Source of the DNA: Verrucomicrobiota bacterium
GTDB lineage: Bacteria > Verrucomicrobiota > Verrucomicrobiia > Opitutales > Seribacteraceae
Direction: 5' to 3'
DNA: 10,274 nt
Assembly (NCBI GenBank): GCA_030830145.1
Contig: JAURNO010000428.1
Coordinates: 1-10,274 of the forward strand
The notes beneath the pieces are model-generated. The model searched no databases. It saw only the letters and a list, made by a program, of their open reading frames with translations, and was not told where the DNA came from. Every line of letters starts with the position of its first letter. Within the stretch, counting starts at the first letter, position 1. This document shows positions 4,069 to 10,274 of the stretch, piece by piece. The position numbers and the translations under genes were made by a program.

Positions 4069-4866
4069 TCAATTATGAGAAAACGAGTCAACTGCCTCGG
4101 GGAGAGCGCTTCCATTTTTAGCCAAAAGACCGATTAAGGTGAAAGCCTTGAGATACCGGGGAACAAATACCTTCGGATTGACCAAACACCGCACCATCCA
4201 TCCCATGTAAAATCGATCCGCCCAATTCGGTATTCTCGCCTGTGTTCCCGAAAGAAATGCCAAGGCAGCTCCCGTACACAATATGACGGAGGAAAAGGAA
4301 AGGTTTTCACGCAGATAAAAACCGAGTCTTTCCTGCACCCCACCTCCAAGTTGGATAAAAATCGTCTTGGGACGAATTTCTCGAAGTTGAGCCAAGAGCT
4401 CAAGATCTTCGATCTCACCGCTCCTGGCATAGGTTGGAGCGACGTAACACGCATCCTCTTCTATAAACTGTCCAAGCTCCTTGTTAATCCATTTACGGCT
4501 GGCTTCGCTTTGCTTCTGATCGGGCATGACCCAAAAGGCATCTTGAAGCGAAACATTATTATCGAAAAGATAGGCCCGCAAAAAAGCCAAACCCGAAATC
4601 CTTTTGATTGGTTTACGGGTGAAAAAATTGGCCCATAAACACATCAACCCGCTATCCGGCAAAACCAACTCGGCTTGAGTCACCGCACGTGAATAGAAGG
4701 AACACTTAAGAAAATCATCCGCTAATCCCGGACCAGACGGAGCAACACACAAACCGCCGCGATTTGCTTCAAAAACGGCATCCGACAACGAACCTGAAAA
4801 AAAGTCGATACCAAGAATTCTCTTTTTGCCGACTGTCGGACCATCCCCTCTTACGGAAGGATTCAC
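4069..4866 (-). CDS. WecG/TagA/CpsF-family glycosyltransferase
   Basis: Members of this family (GT26) add the second sugar, often N-acetylmannosamine or its uronic acid, to undecaprenyl-diphosphate-linked sugars at the membrane. Visible family features are ILGIDFFSGSLSDAV near the start, AELVLPDSGLMCLWA at 65-79 and GGGVQERLGFYLRE at 174-187. The C-terminal stretch SGTQARIPNWADRFYMGWMV (206-225) is followed by R226, P231 and PRY at 236-238. I chose the GTG at 4866, 7 bases after the upstream transferase stop and preceded by GAAG. It gives 265 residues, close to the family norm, while an ATG at 4962 would overlap the transferase by 89 bases. Two usual motif residues differ: the Asn expected in the early TxN-type substrate motif is absent (VAPSGPG, 41-47), and G-P-K-Q-E is GGVQE. 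The donor sugar cannot be told. It probably acts right after the transferase encoded before it. Confidence 0.8.
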   Translation of the reverse strand: MNPSVRGDGPTVGKKRILGIDFFSGSLSDAVFEANRGGLCVAPSGPGLADDFLKCSFYSRAVTQAELVLPDSGLMCLWANFFTRKPIKRISGLAFLRAYLFDNNVSLQDAFWVMPDQKQSEASRKWINKELGQFIEEDACYVAPTYARSGEIEDLELLAQLREIRPKTIFIQLGGGVQERLGFYLRENLSFSSVILCTGAALAFLSGTQARIPNWADRFYMGWMVRCLVNPKVFVPRYLKAFTLIGLLAKNGSALPEAVDSFSHN

Positions 4867-4873
4867 AAATGCT

Positions 4874-6289
4874 TCAGCAAGCGCTTTTGGGAGGGAACAA
4901 AACTTGACCAACCGTCCTGAGAACGATTTCAAAATCCAACCAAATCGACCAATTGCCGACATAATTGAAATCAAGCTCGATCCTTTGGCGAACAAGTGCA
5001 GGATCCGTAAACTCGCCACGCAACCCCCTGCATTGGGCAGGGCCCGTCACGCCGGGTTTTACGAATTGTCGAATACGGTAAGCTTTGTAGTCACGCTGAA
5101 AGAGATAATCATGCTCAGCCAAATAAGGTCTCGGTCCAACCAAGCTCATTTCTCCTTTCAAAACATTAAAAAATTGAGGAACTTCATCGATGCTGAATCG
5201 GCGCATAAAGCGTCCGAAACCAAACACTCTCTTATCTCCGGGAGAGGCTTGTATCGCTTCGTCTCGGGTCTTGGCTTCATCATGCACCATCGATCTGAAT
5301 TTCCATATGACGAATCGCTTGCCGGCCAAGCCAACCCGCTCTTGCCTGAAGAACAAGGGCCCGGATGCCTGAATTGCTTGGAACATCTTAACAACCACCA
5401 TACAAAGCGGAAGAATGAAAAGAAGAGCAGGCAAGCTTATGCACAGATCAAAGGATCTTTTGAGCATTTGATTAAAAGGGCTTTCCAAAGGTTCGTTTTG
5501 CAAAGAGAAAAACTGTCTTCCCGATTCCTCTACAAAAACTAGGCGGGAATCGAAAAAGCCGGACAGTGAATTATAAATAAGTACCCTGCAACCGTGTTGG
5601 CTAGCCAAATCCGTAACAACAGGGATCCAGTCGTCCATGTTTCGGTCAGGCAAAATGACGAGTTGATGAATATTATTCTTCTGCAAAAAAACTTCAAGTT
5701 TGGCGTAAGAACCGAGCCATGGCAGTTGAACGGTACTCGGTGCCTTTTCGCAGGTTGAAAAGGTTCCCGCAAAACTAAAGCCATGGCTCGAATGCCTGGT
5801 TATCCAATTGCTCAGTCCGTCCAACGCAGTGGCTTCTCCGAGGATAACGCTTCTCTTGCTAATCGAGCGGAATCCGATCAACCGTTTAAAAAGCCCAGGG
5901 AGCGCAAAATTAGAACTGACCAACAAAGGCCAACATGTGGAAAGATAAAAAACCAAGAAAAGTCGACTAGTTTCCTTGTCCTTGGTTGCAAAATAAGATG
6001 CAAAAACGAAAAAGGCGATGAGAGAGGTTTGAAAATTAGCCTTCATGACGGATTCACGAATTCTTCGCCATCCGCTCTTGATGAAAAAAGACCCGTAGTT
6101 TTGAAGTGTACCGAAAGTCGAAACGATGAGGCCCGCACCGGCAACTAACGCATAATTCCAAGGCAGATTAATCAAGGAGTACTCCCACTCCTCCCAAAGA
6201 TACAAACAAAACCAAAACCACGAAAAAACAAACACAAGCAGAAATAACTTGTGCATGAGAGCATATCCACGATCTCTATGGTTGGGCAT
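4874..6289 (-). CDS. Polyprenyl-phosphate sugar-phosphate transferase (WbaP/WcaJ type)
   Basis: This integral membrane enzyme starts a polysaccharide repeat unit by moving a sugar-1-phosphate from a nucleotide sugar to undecaprenyl phosphate. From the ATG at 6289 the product has 471 residues. Four hydrophobic segments lie at about 14-32, 45-63, 86-102 and 109-130. A Rossmann-like CoA-binding-type domain covers about 145-265, and the phosphoglycosyl transferase core runs from KRSFDL (277-282) to the end. The core shows the membrane re-entrant helix (about 281-302), FRQERVGLAGKRFVIWKFRSM, the catalytic Asp368-Glu369 in SIDEVPQFFNVLKGEMSLVG, GPRP (385-388) and PGVTGPAQ. A TTG at 6340 would add 17 residues and a fifth hydrophobic segment. 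I prefer the ATG because it gives the usual four-segment topology and leaves room for a promoter. The sugar (galactose, glucose or another) cannot be read from the sequence. It diverges from the regulator gene and probably supplies the substrate for the next gene. Confidence 0.9.
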   Translation of the reverse strand: MPNHRDRGYALMHKLFLLVFVFSWFWFCLYLWEEWEYSLINLPWNYALVAGAGLIVSTFGTLQNYGSFFIKSGWRRIRESVMKANFQTSLIAFFVFASYFATKDKETSRLFLVFYLSTCWPLLVSSNFALPGLFKRLIGFRSISKRSVILGEATALDGLSNWITRHSSHGFSFAGTFSTCEKAPSTVQLPWLGSYAKLEVFLQKNNIHQLVILPDRNMDDWIPVVTDLASQHGCRVLIYNSLSGFFDSRLVFVEESGRQFFSLQNEPLESPFNQMLKRSFDLCISLPALLFILPLCMVVVKMFQAIQASGPLFFRQERVGLAGKRFVIWKFRSMVHDEAKTRDEAIQASPGDKRVFGFGRFMRRFSIDEVPQFFNVLKGEMSLVGPRPYLAEHDYLFQRDYKAYRIRQFVKPGVTGPAQCRGLRGEFTDPALVRQRIELDFNYVGNWSIWLDFEIVLRTVGQVLFPPKSAC

Positions 6290-6343
6290 AAGAAAATTTA
6301 GAAGCAAATATACAATGCCGAAAATCCAAATACACTGCAAGGA

Positions 6344-6429: not shown

Positions 6430-6957
6430 ATGAATGAAAGGATGACGGTGCCGGCAAATCTTCAAGCAGAATCAAACACTACAATTAACGCACGCAACCT
6501 CGAACTCGAATCAATCGATTTTTTCGTCCGCCTGATGAGCATGTTAGGGATGCCCCGATCGGTTGGAGAAATTTATGGATTGCTGTATTTCTCCAAAGAC
6601 TCTCTGCCGATGGATCAAATCGCTTCCCGGCTTGGAATAAGTATTGGTTCCGCTAGTCAGGGCCTTCGTACTCTCCGTTCCCTGAAGGCGGTACGAACCG
6701 CTTATGTTGCAGGAGACCGCAGGGATCATTACTTTGCAGAAACTGAATTCAGGAGATTGTTTTCAAACTTTATCAAAGACGAAATCATGCCCCACTTGGA
6801 TAGTGCAAAAGATCGAATCAGTCGGATGGAAAAATCACTTCCGGAGCAATCGCCTGAAGAAGATGAATTTTATGCAGTTCGCATTGAAAAACTAAGACGG
6901 CTCACAAAAGCAGGCGGACGTTTGCTTCCCGCCCTCGCTGGCCTACTGAAGTTATGA
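6430..6957 (+). CDS. GbsR/MarR-family winged-helix transcriptional regulator
   Basis: This is a DNA-binding regulator of 175 residues. A winged helix-turn-helix spans about residues 41-100. The pattern is SVGEIYGLLYFSKDSLPMDQ, then IASRLGISIGSASQGLRTLRSL (about 64-85; positioning and recognition helices), then the wing VRTAYVAGDRRDHYFAET. That wing form is typical of GbsR-like proteins. A charged helical C-terminus (about 108-160) probably forms the dimer interface. No obvious ligand pocket can be named. The start is uncertain: ATG 6430 is used, ATG 6442 is in frame, a TTG lies at 6406, and none has a well-spaced Shine-Dalgarno; a run of nine T precedes the gene. Its stop overlaps the start of the NusG-like gene (ATGA), so the two are translationally coupled. 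It sits at the head of a polysaccharide operon and probably controls this operon or the divergent one. Confidence 0.85.
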   Translation: MNERMTVPANLQAESNTTINARNLELESIDFFVRLMSMLGMPRSVGEIYGLLYFSKDSLPMDQIASRLGISIGSASQGLRTLRSLKAVRTAYVAGDRRDHYFAETEFRRLFSNFIKDEIMPHLDSAKDRISRMEKSLPEQSPEEDEFYAVRIEKLRRLTKAGGRLLPALAGLLKL

Positions 6958-7499
6958 ACCAAACCCAAGAAGAACTGAAGGATTGGTCCGAAGGTTGGTA
7001 TTGCATCCGAACCAAACCCCGGATGGAAACGGTAGCCGCTGCAACGTTGCAAACCCTTCAAAACGTTGAAGTTTTTTTACCTCGGACAATCCGTCCTCCT
7101 AAAGCTAAAGTTTTTTCGGCCAAAGCTCTTTTCCCTGGCTACATGTTTGCTCGGTTTGACCCAATTTTGCATATCCGAAACGTGCATTATGCCAGGGGCG
7201 TTGGGTATGTCGTAAGGCGTAAGGAAGTACCCGTCCATGTCCCACCGCAAGTAATGATCGAGCTACGACTCATTTCGCCCGATGGACTCTTGGAAATCCC
7301 CGACCAACCTCACAAGGTAGGAGATAAAGTAACCGTCATTTCAGGTCTTTTTGCCGGAGGTGAAGGCACAGTTACTCAATTGATACCCGCCCGAGAAAGA
7401 ATAAAGATACTTTTTGAAATCCTCGGACAACCCCGAGAGGTCGAAATTAACGAGGATATTGTAGATTTTCCCAGCGCTCACCCGATGGGCATCGGATAA
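6954..7499 (+). CDS. NusG paralog (RfaH/UpxY-like transcription elongation factor)
   Basis: This 181-residue specialised elongation factor would bind RNA polymerase and suppress pausing or termination in a long operon. An NGN domain covers about 14-105 (WYCIRTKPRMETVAAATLQ, LFPGYMFARFDP at 59-70, RGVGYVVRRK at 81-90). A KOW domain covers about 120-172 (HKVGDKVTVISGLFAGGEGTV). The segment from LFPGY through VPPQVMIEL aligns with RfaH almost without gaps. His73 and Arg81 fall at the positions of RfaH His65 and Arg73, which I recall as DNA-contacting residues. The housekeeping NusG is normally beside secE and rplK, which are absent here, so this is a paralog. It starts inside the regulator's stop codon (ATGA), with only a weak GAAG before it. 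An ops-like sequence lies 63 bases after its stop and before the polysaccharide gene. The domain assignment is firm; the RfaH-like role is inference. Confidence 0.9.
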   Translation: MNQTQEELKDWSEGWYCIRTKPRMETVAAATLQTLQNVEVFLPRTIRPPKAKVFSAKALFPGYMFARFDPILHIRNVHYARGVGYVVRRKEVPVHVPPQVMIELRLISPDGLLEIPDQPHKVGDKVTVISGLFAGGEGTVTQLIPARERIKILFEILGQPREVEINEDIVDFPSAHPMGIG

Positions 7500-7533: not shown

Positions 7534-7560
7534 TTGGCCTTGCAACGAGCAAACGGCCAA
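7534..7560 (+). promoter_or_regulatory. RNA hairpin just upstream of ops-like element
   Basis: TTGGCC (7534-7539) pairs with GGCCAA (7555-7560), and TTGC (7540-7543) with GCAA (7549-7552). The result is a 10-base-pair stem with a 2-base bulge (AC) and a 5-base loop. There is no T tract after it, so it is not an intrinsic terminator. Its base is 12 nt before the predicted ops pause position, similar to the spacing of known pause hairpins. A role in pausing is inference. Confidence 0.6.
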
Positions 7561-7561
7561 G

Positions 7562-7573
7562 GGCGGTAGCTTG
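7562..7573 (+). promoter_or_regulatory. ops-like element (RfaH loading/pause site)
   Basis: GGCGGTAGCTTG matches the enterobacterial ops consensus GGCGGTAGNNTG at all ten defined positions, and the first nine bases are the same as the E. coli sequence. In E. coli this element makes RNA polymerase pause and exposes a small non-template-strand hairpin that recruits RfaH. The pause pattern (GG, then a pyrimidine followed by G) is kept. It is on the same strand as, and just after, a NusG paralog, and 14 bases before the gmd start. A ten-position match is expected by chance roughly once per million bases per strand. Function in this organism is inferred. Confidence 0.75.
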
Positions 7574-7587
7574 AAATAATAACATCA

Positions 7588-8568
7588 ATGCCCAGAGTCT
7601 TAATCTCCGGAATATCAGGGCAAGACGGTTCTTACTTGGCTGAAAGCCTTGTACATGAAGGTTGTGAAGTTCATGGATTGGTCCGCCGAACTTCCTTGGA
7701 AGTCCCCCATGTCAAGCTGACTCGGATTTCCCCGTTTTTGGATAAATTGACACTCCACCCCTGCTCTTTGGAAAGTCAAACTGCACTTTTCGAGGTTGTC
7801 CGTGAGATCAAACCCGATTTCCTTTATCACCTGGGAGCCCAATCATTCGTTTCCTATGAAATCGAACAGGAATACGCGACCTTGGACACTAATTTGGGAT
7901 CCACTCACGCTCTTTTGTCGGCGGTCATGAGATTCGCTCCTGAATGCCGTTTCTATTTTGCCGCCTCAAGCGAAATCTTCGGTCATGCAGAGACATCCCC
8001 GCAAAATGAATCCACTCCTTTCAATCCTCGCTCAATCTATGGGATATCAAAGTTAGCAGGCTTTCATATTTGTAAATCATTTAGGGAAAACGAGGGTGTT
8101 TTCGCCTGTTCTGGAATTCTCTACAATCACGAATCACCTCGCAGAGGTAAGGAGTACGTAACCCGGAAAATCATTTCACAAGCCGTTGCAATTCATCGCG
8201 GTCAATCGGACGTCATTAAGTTGGGAAACTTGGATTCCGAAAGAGACTGGGGTCATGCAAAGGACTATGTGAATGCCATGAGAAAAATCACGGAGTTTGA
8301 CAAACCCGATGATTTCGTGGTTGCTTCCGGACGAACTCATACTGTCAGAGAGTTTTGCCAAAAAGCCTTTTCACTTCTCGATCTTACCTTCGAAGATTTT
8401 TTTGAATACGATCCACGTTTTTTCAGACCTACTGAAAAAACCACTCTTTGTGGAGACGCTAGCAAAGCGAAGAAAGAACTAGGTTGGTCCCCGTCTCATG
8501 ATCTCGACTCAATAATCGAGGAGATGATGAATAGTGAACTAGAAAGAACTGCCTCTTTGAGCAACTAA
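7588..8568 (+). CDS. gmd: GDP-mannose 4,6-dehydratase
   Basis: Gmd turns GDP-mannose into GDP-4-keto-6-deoxymannose, the precursor of fucose, rhamnose, perosamine and related sugars of surface glycans. The 326-residue short-chain dehydrogenase has the NADP-binding GISGQDGSYLAE (8-19) and the Arg pair VRRTS (32-36). Catalytic residues are Ser127 (in place of the usual Thr), Glu129 in AASSEIFG, and Tyr151/Lys155 in SIYGISK. The family-specific stretches GILYNHESPRRGKEYVTRKI (176-195) and LGNLDSERDWGHAKDYV (212-228) follow. These separate it from RMD reductases and other sugar dehydratases. The usual GDLTD-type segment is CSLES (59-63), and the protein is somewhat short for the family (about 340-370). 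No clear Shine-Dalgarno precedes the ATG. No reductase or aminotransferase for the product is in the window, so the final sugar is unknown. It is the first gene after the ops-like element. Confidence 0.92.
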   Translation: MPRVLISGISGQDGSYLAESLVHEGCEVHGLVRRTSLEVPHVKLTRISPFLDKLTLHPCSLESQTALFEVVREIKPDFLYHLGAQSFVSYEIEQEYATLDTNLGSTHALLSAVMRFAPECRFYFAASSEIFGHAETSPQNESTPFNPRSIYGISKLAGFHICKSFRENEGVFACSGILYNHESPRRGKEYVTRKIISQAVAIHRGQSDVIKLGNLDSERDWGHAKDYVNAMRKITEFDKPDDFVVASGRTHTVREFCQKAFSLLDLTFEDFFEYDPRFFRPTEKTTLCGDASKAKKELGWSPSHDLDSIIEEMMNSELERTASLSN

Positions 8569-8571
8569 AGG

Positions 8572-10274
8572 ATGATTCGATACAAACTTAGTTACCTTAC
8601 TTCGCTTCTCTTCCTTTTCATCTTCACTGTTGTCTTTTTATCCGTCGATTTCTTCATGCCCCACTTGCGTTCATGGAAATCAGACAAAATGCGTCTGCAG
8701 TCGCAAGTTTACCTAGACGAATCTATCGACAAGCGAAGCGGTTTGCTGGAGGACGGCGTTCGCAAAGCCAAGATCGCATTCCTACTCGATCCTGAAAACG
8801 AAGATACTTTTGAGAACTACAACCTATTGCTTTTCCGAACAAATCCTTCCGTGGCATTGGAGAACTGGTCGGCAAAATTGGTGGACCAGGGTGATGAAAT
8901 TGAAAAAAGAATCAATATTTTCGAAAAAAGCCTGACCACGTTGAGGGACGACACCCTTTCGCCTTTGCACCGTAAACGGGCAGGTGAAGTGGCTTTTACG
9001 CAAATGAAAAGACTGACCATGTCCAACAATTGGATCGATGATCCCAAAAATGCACTCATGGTTTGTAATTTATTGGCTGAGACCGGGAACCAAATCGAAG
9101 CCCTTAGGCAAGTCAAAAGACTTTTAGAAAGACACCCTGGGCATCCACAGGCTTTATTTCTTCTTACTCGCCTTTCGGTTCACCTCAAAGAAGTATCTCA
9201 ACTCCCCAGCATTGGGAAGGCGTTGGCTGGGCTCTCCGCTCAAAGAGATGAAACCGGACTAGAAGCGATTAGGCACATGACTTTACTACACCTGATGCAA
9301 CCCCTCTCTTCCGGAAGCCTGAACAAATGTATTCAGCTTCTTCAAGCGAACAAGCATGCACAGCCTATCGACTTCCTTCGCGTTCATGCACTACGAGTCG
9401 CTTCCTCACCCAGCGAAAAGGAAAAAAAAGTAATCATCAAAAATTGCTCTGAACTATTCGATTTGGAGAATCCCAAGGATCTGCTTATTTTTTCGAATTG
9501 GTTGGCTCGATTACGACACTTTCGAGACCTTCTTAGTTATTTACCCACCTCCAAAGCTAAAGTAGACGAAAACCTCTTTAAAATAAGAATGAACGCTCTT
9601 GCGCATCTCAATGATACCGAAAGCATTCATCGCGAAGTTAGGAATTCGCCGATAATCCCTCAAAGGTGGAGATTTCTCGTAGAGGCTAGAGCCTTTGCCC
9701 TAGCCGGCAATTTCAAAGAAGCTTCGGCCATATTGGACCGATTGATTCCTGTTTTAGGTGAAGATTATAGAAAAGTGCGAGGAATTTGCCAATATTTGGA
9801 AAACTCGGACGACATACCAAGCTTGGTTCACATTCTCGAAAAGTTAATCGACAAGCCGATTCACAAACGTTTCGCACTTCAAAAGTTGATGCAGCATCGG
9901 TCTGCCTCCGCATCACTGAAAGATTTGCTGGGTTGGATGGGAAGGCTTGCCCAAACAGAAGACAGCAACGCTGCTTTTTCTGAGTCTTACCTTTATTTCG
10001 AATTACTCAATCCGCATCTTCCTTCACCCTCCCAAAAACTAGACCAATTAATAGCAGAGGCAAAAGTATTCCATAGCGAACACAACACTATGCGGACTCG
10101 CATTACACTTGCCCTTGCTTACCTCAGAAATCATTCAGCAGACCTTGCACTCGTTGCTCTCGGTCGAGCGGAGAATTGGAGGGAGTGGGCCAACACGAGA
10201 TCCGCGTGGGCATACATCGCCGCACAAATTTTCAACCTCAATCATAGCTCAGAAAAAGCTCTAGTGGTTTCATC
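8572..10274 (+). CDS. Membrane-anchored helical-repeat (TPR-like) protein, 3' end missing
   Basis: An uninterrupted frame of 567 codons runs from the ATG at 8572 to the right edge without a stop. It starts with a single hydrophobic segment (about residues 8-29, YLTSLLFLFIFTVVFLSVDF) after a basic MIRYK, which suggests a signal anchor with the bulk outside the cytoplasm. The rest is charged and almost wholly helical. Stretches resembling tetratricopeptide repeats lie near 160-208 (NALMVCNLLAETGNQIEALR) and 366-410 (ARAFALAGNFKEASAILDRL). No enzyme motif was seen. It begins 3 bases after the gmd stop, with AAAGG directly abutting the ATG, so it is cotranscribed and probably coupled. Placement in a polysaccharide operon suggests a scaffold for synthesis, export or chain-length control, as TPR proteins do in several exopolysaccharide systems. 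I do not recognise a named family. Confidence 0.8.
   Translation, partial: MIRYKLSYLTSLLFLFIFTVVFLSVDFFMPHLRSWKSDKMRLQSQVYLDESIDKRSGLLEDGVRKAKIAFLLDPENEDTFENYNLLLFRTNPSVALENWSAKLVDQGDEIEKRINIFEKSLTTLRDDTLSPLHRKRAGEVAFTQMKRLTMSNNWIDDPKNALMVCNLLAETGNQIEALRQVKRLLERHPGHPQALFLLTRLSVHLKEVSQLPSIGKALAGLSAQRDETGLEAIRHMTLLHLMQPLSSGSLNKCIQLLQANKHAQPIDFLRVHALRVASSPSEKEKKVIIKNCSELFDLENPKDLLIFSNWLARLRHFRDLLSYLPTSKAKVDENLFKIRMNALAHLNDTESIHREVRNSPIIPQRWRFLVEARAFALAGNFKEASAILDRLIPVLGEDYRKVRGICQYLENSDDIPSLVHILEKLIDKPIHKRFALQKLMQHRSASASLKDLLGWMGRLAQTEDSNAAFSESYLYFELLNPHLPSPSQKLDQLIAEAKVFHSEHNTMRTRITLALAYLRNHSADLALVALGRAENWREWANTRSAWAYIAAQIFNLNHSSEKALVVS

Follow-up and report, generated by a model that had tools for sequence, protein, structure and literature searches.

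In Escherichia coli, the ops element has been shown to pause RNA polymerase and to form a hairpin in the non-template DNA strand, which recruits the NusG paralog RfaH (eLife 36349). In this system, the side chains of K10, H20, R23 and R73 of RfaH contact ops, and the bases that are read are G5 and T6 (Zuber et al., 2018); according to Wang et al. (2020), K10 predates RfaH and R73 is a later arrival. In the view taken in 2020, detailed knowledge of recruitment existed for one RfaH-like regulator alone, E. coli RfaH, its reading of ops was a late step inside the Proteobacteria, and the recruitment modes of paralogs encoded within operons were called unknown (mBio 02717-20). Another example of a specialised NusG paralog is LoaP, which depends on a hairpin in the leader RNA of its target operon and which its authors describe as the sole NusG-like protein for which binding to a specific RNA element is known; in the LoaP study, the dfn hairpin gave no discernible pause. 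A conserved stem-loop is also part of the JUMPstart RNA, which has been listed for gamma-Proteobacteria (Weinberg et al., 2010), and a term search of RfaH papers hardly met with an upstream hairpin. A literature search that covered few subscription journals found no work on RfaH-ops or on NusG paralogs in Verrucomicrobiota, and 'Verrucomicrob' is absent from the main text of mBio 02717-20. The ops sites of this second phylum are preceded by a hairpin that covaries, and most element-bearing genomes of one order also encode a candidate factor, which makes RfaH-type recruitment testable there.

The ops element and its conservation

The window analysed here is the whole stretch of 10,274 nucleotides from a Verrucomicrobiota bacterium, whose genome assembly is fragmented, 75% complete and 2.69 Mb in size. 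On the forward strand, the gene at 6954..7499 encodes a protein of 181 aa with NGN and KOW domains (Pfam NusG and KOW), which is taken as a specialised NusG paralog because a second, better-scoring NusG gene of the same genome sits on a separate contig (C33). Its start is overlapped by 4 bases by the gene of a winged-helix regulator (6430..6957, forward strand), whose assignment to the GbsR/MarR type is weak (65.7 versus 218 bits for NCBIfam CudC, and no match in Pfam). The first gene 3' of ops, at 7588..8568 on the forward strand, encodes a gmd-like nucleotide-sugar dehydratase (Pfam GDP_Man_Dehyd, 344 bits) that reaches 313 bits with TIGR01472 gmd, and, this being well under the cut-off of 415, its product may be another sugar. 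It is followed on the same strand by a gene for a protein with weak TPR matches (8572..10272), which runs off the contig end. Divergent polysaccharide genes occupy 4069..6340 on the reverse strand, with a WecG/TagA-type transferase at 4069-5019 and an initiating sugar transferase at 4874-6340.

The gap of 88 bases between the paralog stop at 7499 and the gmd-like start at 7588 contains a stem-loop and, as a preliminary description of this DNA had reported, an ops element on the sense strand at 7562..7573 (GGCGGTAGCTTG, positions G1-G12), for which a pause is predicted with the RNA 3' end at T11 (7572). The consensus GGCGGTAGNNTG has one match in the window, where 0.02 would be expected and where 4 of 200 shuffles had one. 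The preliminary description had also named a JUMPStart string, GCCAGGGGCGGTAGCGTG, which does occur in the wza and rfbB leaders of E. coli K-12 and which matches 7556-7573 at 16 of 18 letters. An enrichment of the element over its own genome, which had been suggested as a check, is not seen, as the 12-mer occurs once and the reversed control pattern twice, which is not above chance. With one copy against two of the control, frequency in this genome is uninformative, and the useful test is position. An element within 200 bp downstream of the NusG-paralog gene is present at 30 of 31 such genes, the 31st being cut by a contig end, in 42 genomes of the family, of which 31 have the paralog.

These family loci show which parts of the region are kept. 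Among the 42 genomes there are 31 exact copies of the 15-mer GCCAAGGGCGGTAGC, where by our own arithmetic about 0.2 would be expected, and when up to one mismatch is allowed it is found in 46 places, compared with 12 for the reversed pattern. The motif GCGG[TC]AGC lies 54-69 bases past the paralog stop in all 31 loci read (the 30 of the family paralog search plus L032, which is probably the same contig as L018), one of them with an undetermined base, and the ops core is kept among the 31 paralog loci while the genes downstream differ. A chance likeness, or the common descent of a single functionless intergenic region, would fit the one copy of the 12-mer against two of its reversed control in the window's genome. 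Such an account is contradicted by conservation and is scarcely credible: in 29 family loci aligned without gaps on the core, identity is 74% in the 3' arm of the stem-loop and 82% in the core, as opposed to 27-35% in the flanks (the 5' arm and loop, which vary in length, give 38% in this ungapped view), and copies recur at other loci before one class of genes. The preliminary description had named non-conservation combined with a chance frequency as what would speak against its reading; chance frequency is indeed seen in the own genome, but the element is kept at orthologous loci and turns up again elsewhere in the order and in further groups of the phylum. Judged from these comparisons, it is real and almost surely functional.

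Across 89 distinct elements, G2, C3, G4, G5, A7, G8 and C9 are identical in all 89, T11 is present in 86, position 10 is free, and position 12 is G in 55 and A in 26, a constancy that is partly due to selection, since the core was part of the models and patterns by which elements were found. These 89 are what is left of 92 after three were removed as duplicates, cut short or with N; L117 and L182 are one site. At base 6, 39 of the 41 family elements have T, and the 48 elements outside the family have mostly C (C 37, T 9, A 2), the search having been open at this base for the 48, restricted to T or C for the set downstream of paralog genes (cis), and nearly fixed as T for the set elsewhere (trans). 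Position 12 of the 48 is G in 31 and A in 12. Because of the preference for C at base 6, the strict form GGCGGTAGNNTG is, on the elements collected here, a special case of GGCGGYAGCNT.

Distribution and gene neighbourhoods

Two models were used, R1 for the element search and R2, which was built from a wider set. In the family, R1 at E ≤ 1e-5 finds 48 elements, of which 30 lie behind the paralog gene, 17 before wzz and one at a contig edge. From the side of the target gene, a search for wzz at E ≤ 1e-20 gives 17 genes in 16 family genomes (one gene being given as two pieces), and all 17 have the element upstream; in the best-read of these loci the order is Wzi, polysaccharide export protein, GbsR-like regulator, element, Wzz, UDP-sugar dehydrogenase and epimerase. 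Ops stands in the leaders of unlinked operons in the family and also in the order, and the window's own genome, in its 75% complete assembly, has the cis site only, with no wzz found. As elements lie both downstream of paralog genes and upstream of wzz, the paralog probably acts in cis and in trans. The preliminary description had the factor encoded in cis before its own loading site, and this placement holds at 30 of 31 loci; it is not the only one, however, since copies stand before wzz and other surface-sugar genes, and in some lineages the paralog is unlinked to any visible ops.

In the order, R1 at E ≤ 0.01 detects the element in 45 of 177 genomes and the paralog is present in 67, and the two occur together: 39 genomes have both, 6 the element alone, 28 the paralog alone and 104 neither (Fisher 5e-15), or 29, 5, 27 and 101 when the own family is left out (Fisher 7e-12), these being counts over related genomes and not over independent events. 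At E ≤ 1e-4, the paralog is found in 34 of 35 element genomes, the exception being the contig-edge case. The 28 of 67 paralog-bearing genomes that lack an R1 element are partly a matter of sensitivity, as at least five of them (G043, G050, G062, G072 and G125) match R2. Within the order, 23 elements sit 31-114 bases behind a paralog match (48 of the 49 elements at E ≤ 1e-4 being entered, and the contig-edge one of G001 omitted), no cis ops was seen in nine unlinked paralog loci that were opened, and a further 20 matches comprise 18 in apparent leaders and 2 in coding sequence. Two matches in coding sequence, L185 (E 1.4e-4) and L189 (E 0.002), were omitted as false; G070:C1 and G010:C552 are placed by coordinates only; and of the matches weaker than E 1e-3, L189 was opened early and one of 17 others (G061:C46) later, as L284.

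In the phylum, R1 at E ≤ 0.001 matches 18 of 387 genomes and R2 matches 62, including groups outside the class, the weak matches being unopened and some of them surely due to chance. Of 30 loci from the R2 search, 16 were opened, and 9 of these have both regulator and paralog, while 7 have neither in the stretch (for L304, the core shown is not the match of the model). The suggestion that ops occurs outside the Proteobacteria is borne out by its recurrence in the family, in the order and in groups beyond the class. As a control, 75 viral-contig stretches picked by a 17-base pattern gave R1 scores of up to 24.6 bits, with the five best inside or at the ends of open frames, so that an R1 score of 25 bits or less needs context. 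A BLAST search of the phylum-type element against plasmids returned no match over 80% of the query.

The placement of the element before polysaccharide operons extends from the 17 wzz genes of the family to the 48 elements outside it, 35 of which have a first gene that fits surface-sugar work by Pfam. These are epimerase/dehydratase (10), ABC-2 transporter (8), WecG (6), SIS_2 (6), GlmS-like with SIS and glutamine amidotransferase (3), sugar transferase (1) and cytidylyltransferase (1) genes. A further 10 are other or unnamed (APS kinase 2, ABC exporter 2, DUF218 2, porin-like 1, methyltransferase 1, and 2 without a Pfam match, where the gene is the regulator itself), and behind 3 elements the next 500 bases hold no frame of 150 codons; for L082, the frame seen on reading the locus was used in place of the one picked automatically. 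At one SIS_2 locus, PfkB, DAHP-synthase-type and SIS-CBS genes lie further on, and these are read as heptose and KDO genes of LPS. The map of elements names likely target operons in a poorly known phylum.

A GbsR-like gene is found upstream of 79 of the 89 elements and downstream of 3, and is absent from the stretch read for 7, and the GbsR/MarR-like protein may be a functional partner of the NusG paralog. Some neighbourhoods are of interest in their own right. In one group outside the class (L118, L119, L121, L290 and L293), the site stands before a glmS-like gene, assigned by Pfam in the first three and by reading in the last two, which is an unusual target for ops. The site stands before an APS-kinase gene in family f21 (L089 and L179), which hints at a sulfated polysaccharide. 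In family f18 (L164 and L165), by our own reading, the paralog is followed directly by a gmd-like gene and a relative of the window's TPR-type gene, with no ops between.

The stem-loop upstream of ops

The preliminary description saw a likeness to JUMPStart over 18 letters. This likeness is sound and goes further than was noticed, since a stem-loop sits directly 5' of ops. In the window, the bulged stem-loop occupies 7534..7560 on the forward strand, with arms at 7534-7543 and 7549-7560 and a 2-nt bulge at 7553-7554, and reads TTGGCC TTGC, loop AACGA, then GCAA AC GGCCAA; one G follows, and then GGCGGTAGCTTG. Among relatives, the loops differ in length and letters, the upper stem changes with pairing kept, the bulge lies on the 3' arm, and TTGG/CCAA is the most constant part of the arms.

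Covariation has been assessed in two sets with shuffles, which ignore relatedness, and with slid controls, which correct for it in part, on a structure drawn after the sequences had been seen. In 40 family elements (28 cis and 12 trans) and over ten pairs, 94.0% of cells are paired, as opposed to 88.5% when shuffled and at most 51.7% when slid, and there are 19 double-change cells against 3.5 shuffled; further pair types number 12 against 9.6, a value reached by 33 of 500 shuffles. The 48 elements outside the family, whose alignment used letters alone, have 84.6% of their cells paired, compared with 65.0% in shuffles and no more than 47.3% when slid; double-change cells number 106 against 36.6 shuffled, and the covariation score is 0.518 compared with 0.174 shuffled and at most 0.144 slid. 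Two of the five measures in this set lie within the shuffles, namely double-change pairs (7 versus 6.4) and further pair types (23 versus 21.8), and three of the five lower-stem pairs show no change in step. The 40 bases before G1 also fold better than their own shuffles, with a mean z of -2.06 (n = 89) versus -0.17 for 178 random segments of the same loci, and in 66 of 89 elements the pairing within these 40 bases ends at -2 from G1; when a longer stretch of the window is folded, extra pairs reach into ops.

This is like the arrangement in E. coli K-12, where the wza, rfbB and waaQ leaders contain GGCGGTAGCGTG and where the 26, 30 or 40 upstream bases, folded alone, give a stem of 5 pairs with its last base at -2 from G1 in all three; including ops in the fold changes the pairings of the K-12 leaders. 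In the wza leader of E. coli CP53 and at a site on a Rahnella plasmid, the stem end is not at -2. The verrucomicrobial signal and the JUMPstart RNA (RF01707) are alike in the order of stem-loop, G and ops, in a stem 3' end placed as in K-12 wza, rfbB and waaQ, and in their location in polysaccharide leaders; the former differs by its 3'-arm bulge and its longer, covarying upper stem. Identity with the Rfam JUMPstart family was considered and rejected, the window scoring 17.4 bits with RF01707 and the best of 16 loci (L015) 25.7 bits, against a gathering cut-off of 35; none of 19 relatives is above the cut-off, and E. coli matches. When two models made from Verrucomicrobiota only were run on 71 kb of E. 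coli and Rahnella, the same six sites with an ops core were the best six for both, with the score coming mostly from ops letters: the three K-12 leaders, CP53 wza, the Rahnella site and one site between transposase pieces of CP53. To our knowledge, the last is not a known ops site; it is a second GGCGGTAGCTTG upstream of a truncated transposase gene, between insertion-sequence pieces (L127:1701-1740). The ops core of the Rahnella plasmid (L126:2988-3042) lies between hcp and tssH in a type VI secretion cluster, which suggests control by RfaH.

An inverted repeat beside a regulator gene may also be a DNA operator, in this case for the GbsR/MarR-like neighbour, with ops as a separate, adjoining feature. 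The frequent company of the GbsR-like gene (upstream of 79 and downstream of 3 of the 89 elements) and the constancy of TTGG/CCAA would be expected of an operator; a loop of varying length, a bulged 3' arm and an upper stem that changes with pairing kept would not, nor would a repeat whose end keeps the same distance from ops in 66 of 89 elements, and 7 of the 89 have no such gene in the stretch read. An operator is therefore very improbable. Covariation alone does not separate RNA from single-stranded DNA, and it is the position of the stem that points to RNA: with the polymerase at ops, this stretch would lie behind the transcription bubble. From an RNA 3' end at T11 it is 12 bases back to the end of the stem, which is about the distance at which pause hairpins act. 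The hairpin is likely to be a working RNA part of the signal.

The NusG paralog and its recruitment

The paralog of the window had been called RfaH-like, which appears apt for its likely way of working but does not extend to membership of the RfaH family. The RfaH model TIGR01955 is its best NCBIfam match, at 83.0 bits against a cut-off of 144.5, and PRK09014 (RfaH) gives 45.3 against 124 bits; for four other paralogs, the RfaH model is again the best NCBIfam match and again below its cut-off (75.6-93.1 versus 144.5 bits). The best match among PDB sequences is RfaH (E 1e-10). Among the residues that contact ops, the window paralog keeps K10 and R73 and has T for H20 and L for R23. The 31 family paralogs have K10 in 31, H20 in 2, R23 in none and R73 in 21, and the 19 linked paralogs outside the family have them in 4, 3, 2 and 4, respectively. 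On account of both the curated score and these reader residues, the protein is not filed as RfaH. As regards the autoinhibited, alpha-helical KOW of free RfaH, positions E48, I93 and F130 correspond to K, M and V in the window paralog, and an AlphaFold2 model of the paralog from two sequences was discarded (mean pLDDT 33). As the site is kept where the known reader residues are lost, either other residues would read ops or the stem and the pause would carry more of the load.

It is proposed, with a probability of about 0.8, that the NusG paralog encoded just upstream is loaded at this element and that recruitment works as in RfaH-ops. In this scheme, RNA polymerase would leave the paralog gene, the nascent RNA would form the stem-loop just where it emerges from the exit channel, and the polymerase would pause at T11 (7572), where the non-template strand of the paused bubble would expose the GCGGTAGC mini-hairpin. 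The paralog would bind the paused complex through this mini-hairpin, through the RNA stem-loop or through both, displace housekeeping NusG, and hence Rho, and stay on through the polysaccharide operon; in family members with a wzz operon, the same site before wzz would load it there too. Pausing, binding and antitermination are the steps that we infer here from sequence, and it is with less certainty that the hairpin may be thought to prolong the pause or to be touched by the protein.

This arrangement shares several features with the RfaH-ops system of E. coli, namely a NusG paralog, the same 12-base site, capsule and LPS-type operons, and sites at unlinked operons. It differs in that the paralog is under the curated RfaH score, that H20 and R23 are lost in the window and K10 and R73 in most linked paralogs outside the family, that base 6 is mostly C outside the family, that the factor is often encoded directly before its own site and usually has a GbsR-like partner, and that the phylum is another one. 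As in UpxY of Bacteroides, the paralog gene lies within the polysaccharide operon that it is thought to serve, with the order paralog, ops and gmd in the window; unlike UpxY, the window paralog scores 49.6 bits against an UpxY cut-off of 100, and there are trans sites. LoaP and its dfn leader hairpin also combine a NusG paralog with an RNA hairpin in the target leader; here the window paralog reaches 36.8 bits against a LoaP cut-off of 125, and the loops are variable, as opposed to the UNCG-type hairpin of LoaP.

The LoaP precedent, in which a leader RNA hairpin is needed, bears on another reading, in which ops, resembling a consensus elongation pause, was reached twice in its letters and recruitment of the paralog depends mainly on the RNA stem-loop, much as LoaP would be recruited by its leader hairpin. 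The loss of most ops-contacting residues of RfaH, the relaxation of T6 to C and the covariation of the stem agree with such convergence. However, G4, G5, A7 and G8 are reported to be dispensable for pausing in E. coli and yet are identical in 89 of 89 elements (found by a search that favours the core), and the stem ends at the same base as in the K-12 JUMPStart leaders. Since upper-stem and loop letters vary, there is also little stem sequence for a protein to read, and convergence is considered unlikely. Within the family, paralogs with Q at RfaH position 73 go with C at base 6 of ops (L030 and L031), and those with R or H go with T or an undetermined base; judged by eye, this pattern is absent outside the family.

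A joint transfer of RfaH and ops between Proteobacteria and Verrucomicrobiota could also account for the likeness, as RfaH genes are known to move (mBio 02717-20) and the RfaH model is the best NCBIfam match of all five paralogs tested. In a tree of 41 proteins, however, which is unrooted, has long branches and few outgroups, and contains neither UpxY nor LoaP, the verrucomicrobial paralogs group together, separate from the four RfaH-like proteins of Proteobacteria. The system is moreover present both within the class and beyond it, and has a usual gene partner and a preference at base 6 of its own; transfer appears improbable. A bolder reading, which we consider possible though doubtful, is that stem-loop and ops form one composite recruitment signal that predates the split of Proteobacteria and Verrucomicrobiota. 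Reading of ops would then be no late proteobacterial addition on the way to RfaH but an old property of specialised NusG paralogs, re-tuned later in enterobacteria through T6 reading and autoinhibition, and the hairpin would be a working part in both phyla. Gene switching of the ops type may thus have a far greater age than has been assumed, or two separate origins.

The recruitment through ops proposed here raises the questions of which residues read ops without H20 and R23, of how important the hairpin is, and of whether E. coli RfaH and the verrucomicrobial paralog can exchange sites. An observation from another group concerns Marivivens (L190, near 3720, reverse strand), where a gene annotated as RfaH adjoins that of an EPS-associated MarR regulator and GCGGTAGCCGTG lies just before the MarR gene; this is a possible ops variant in Alphaproteobacteria.
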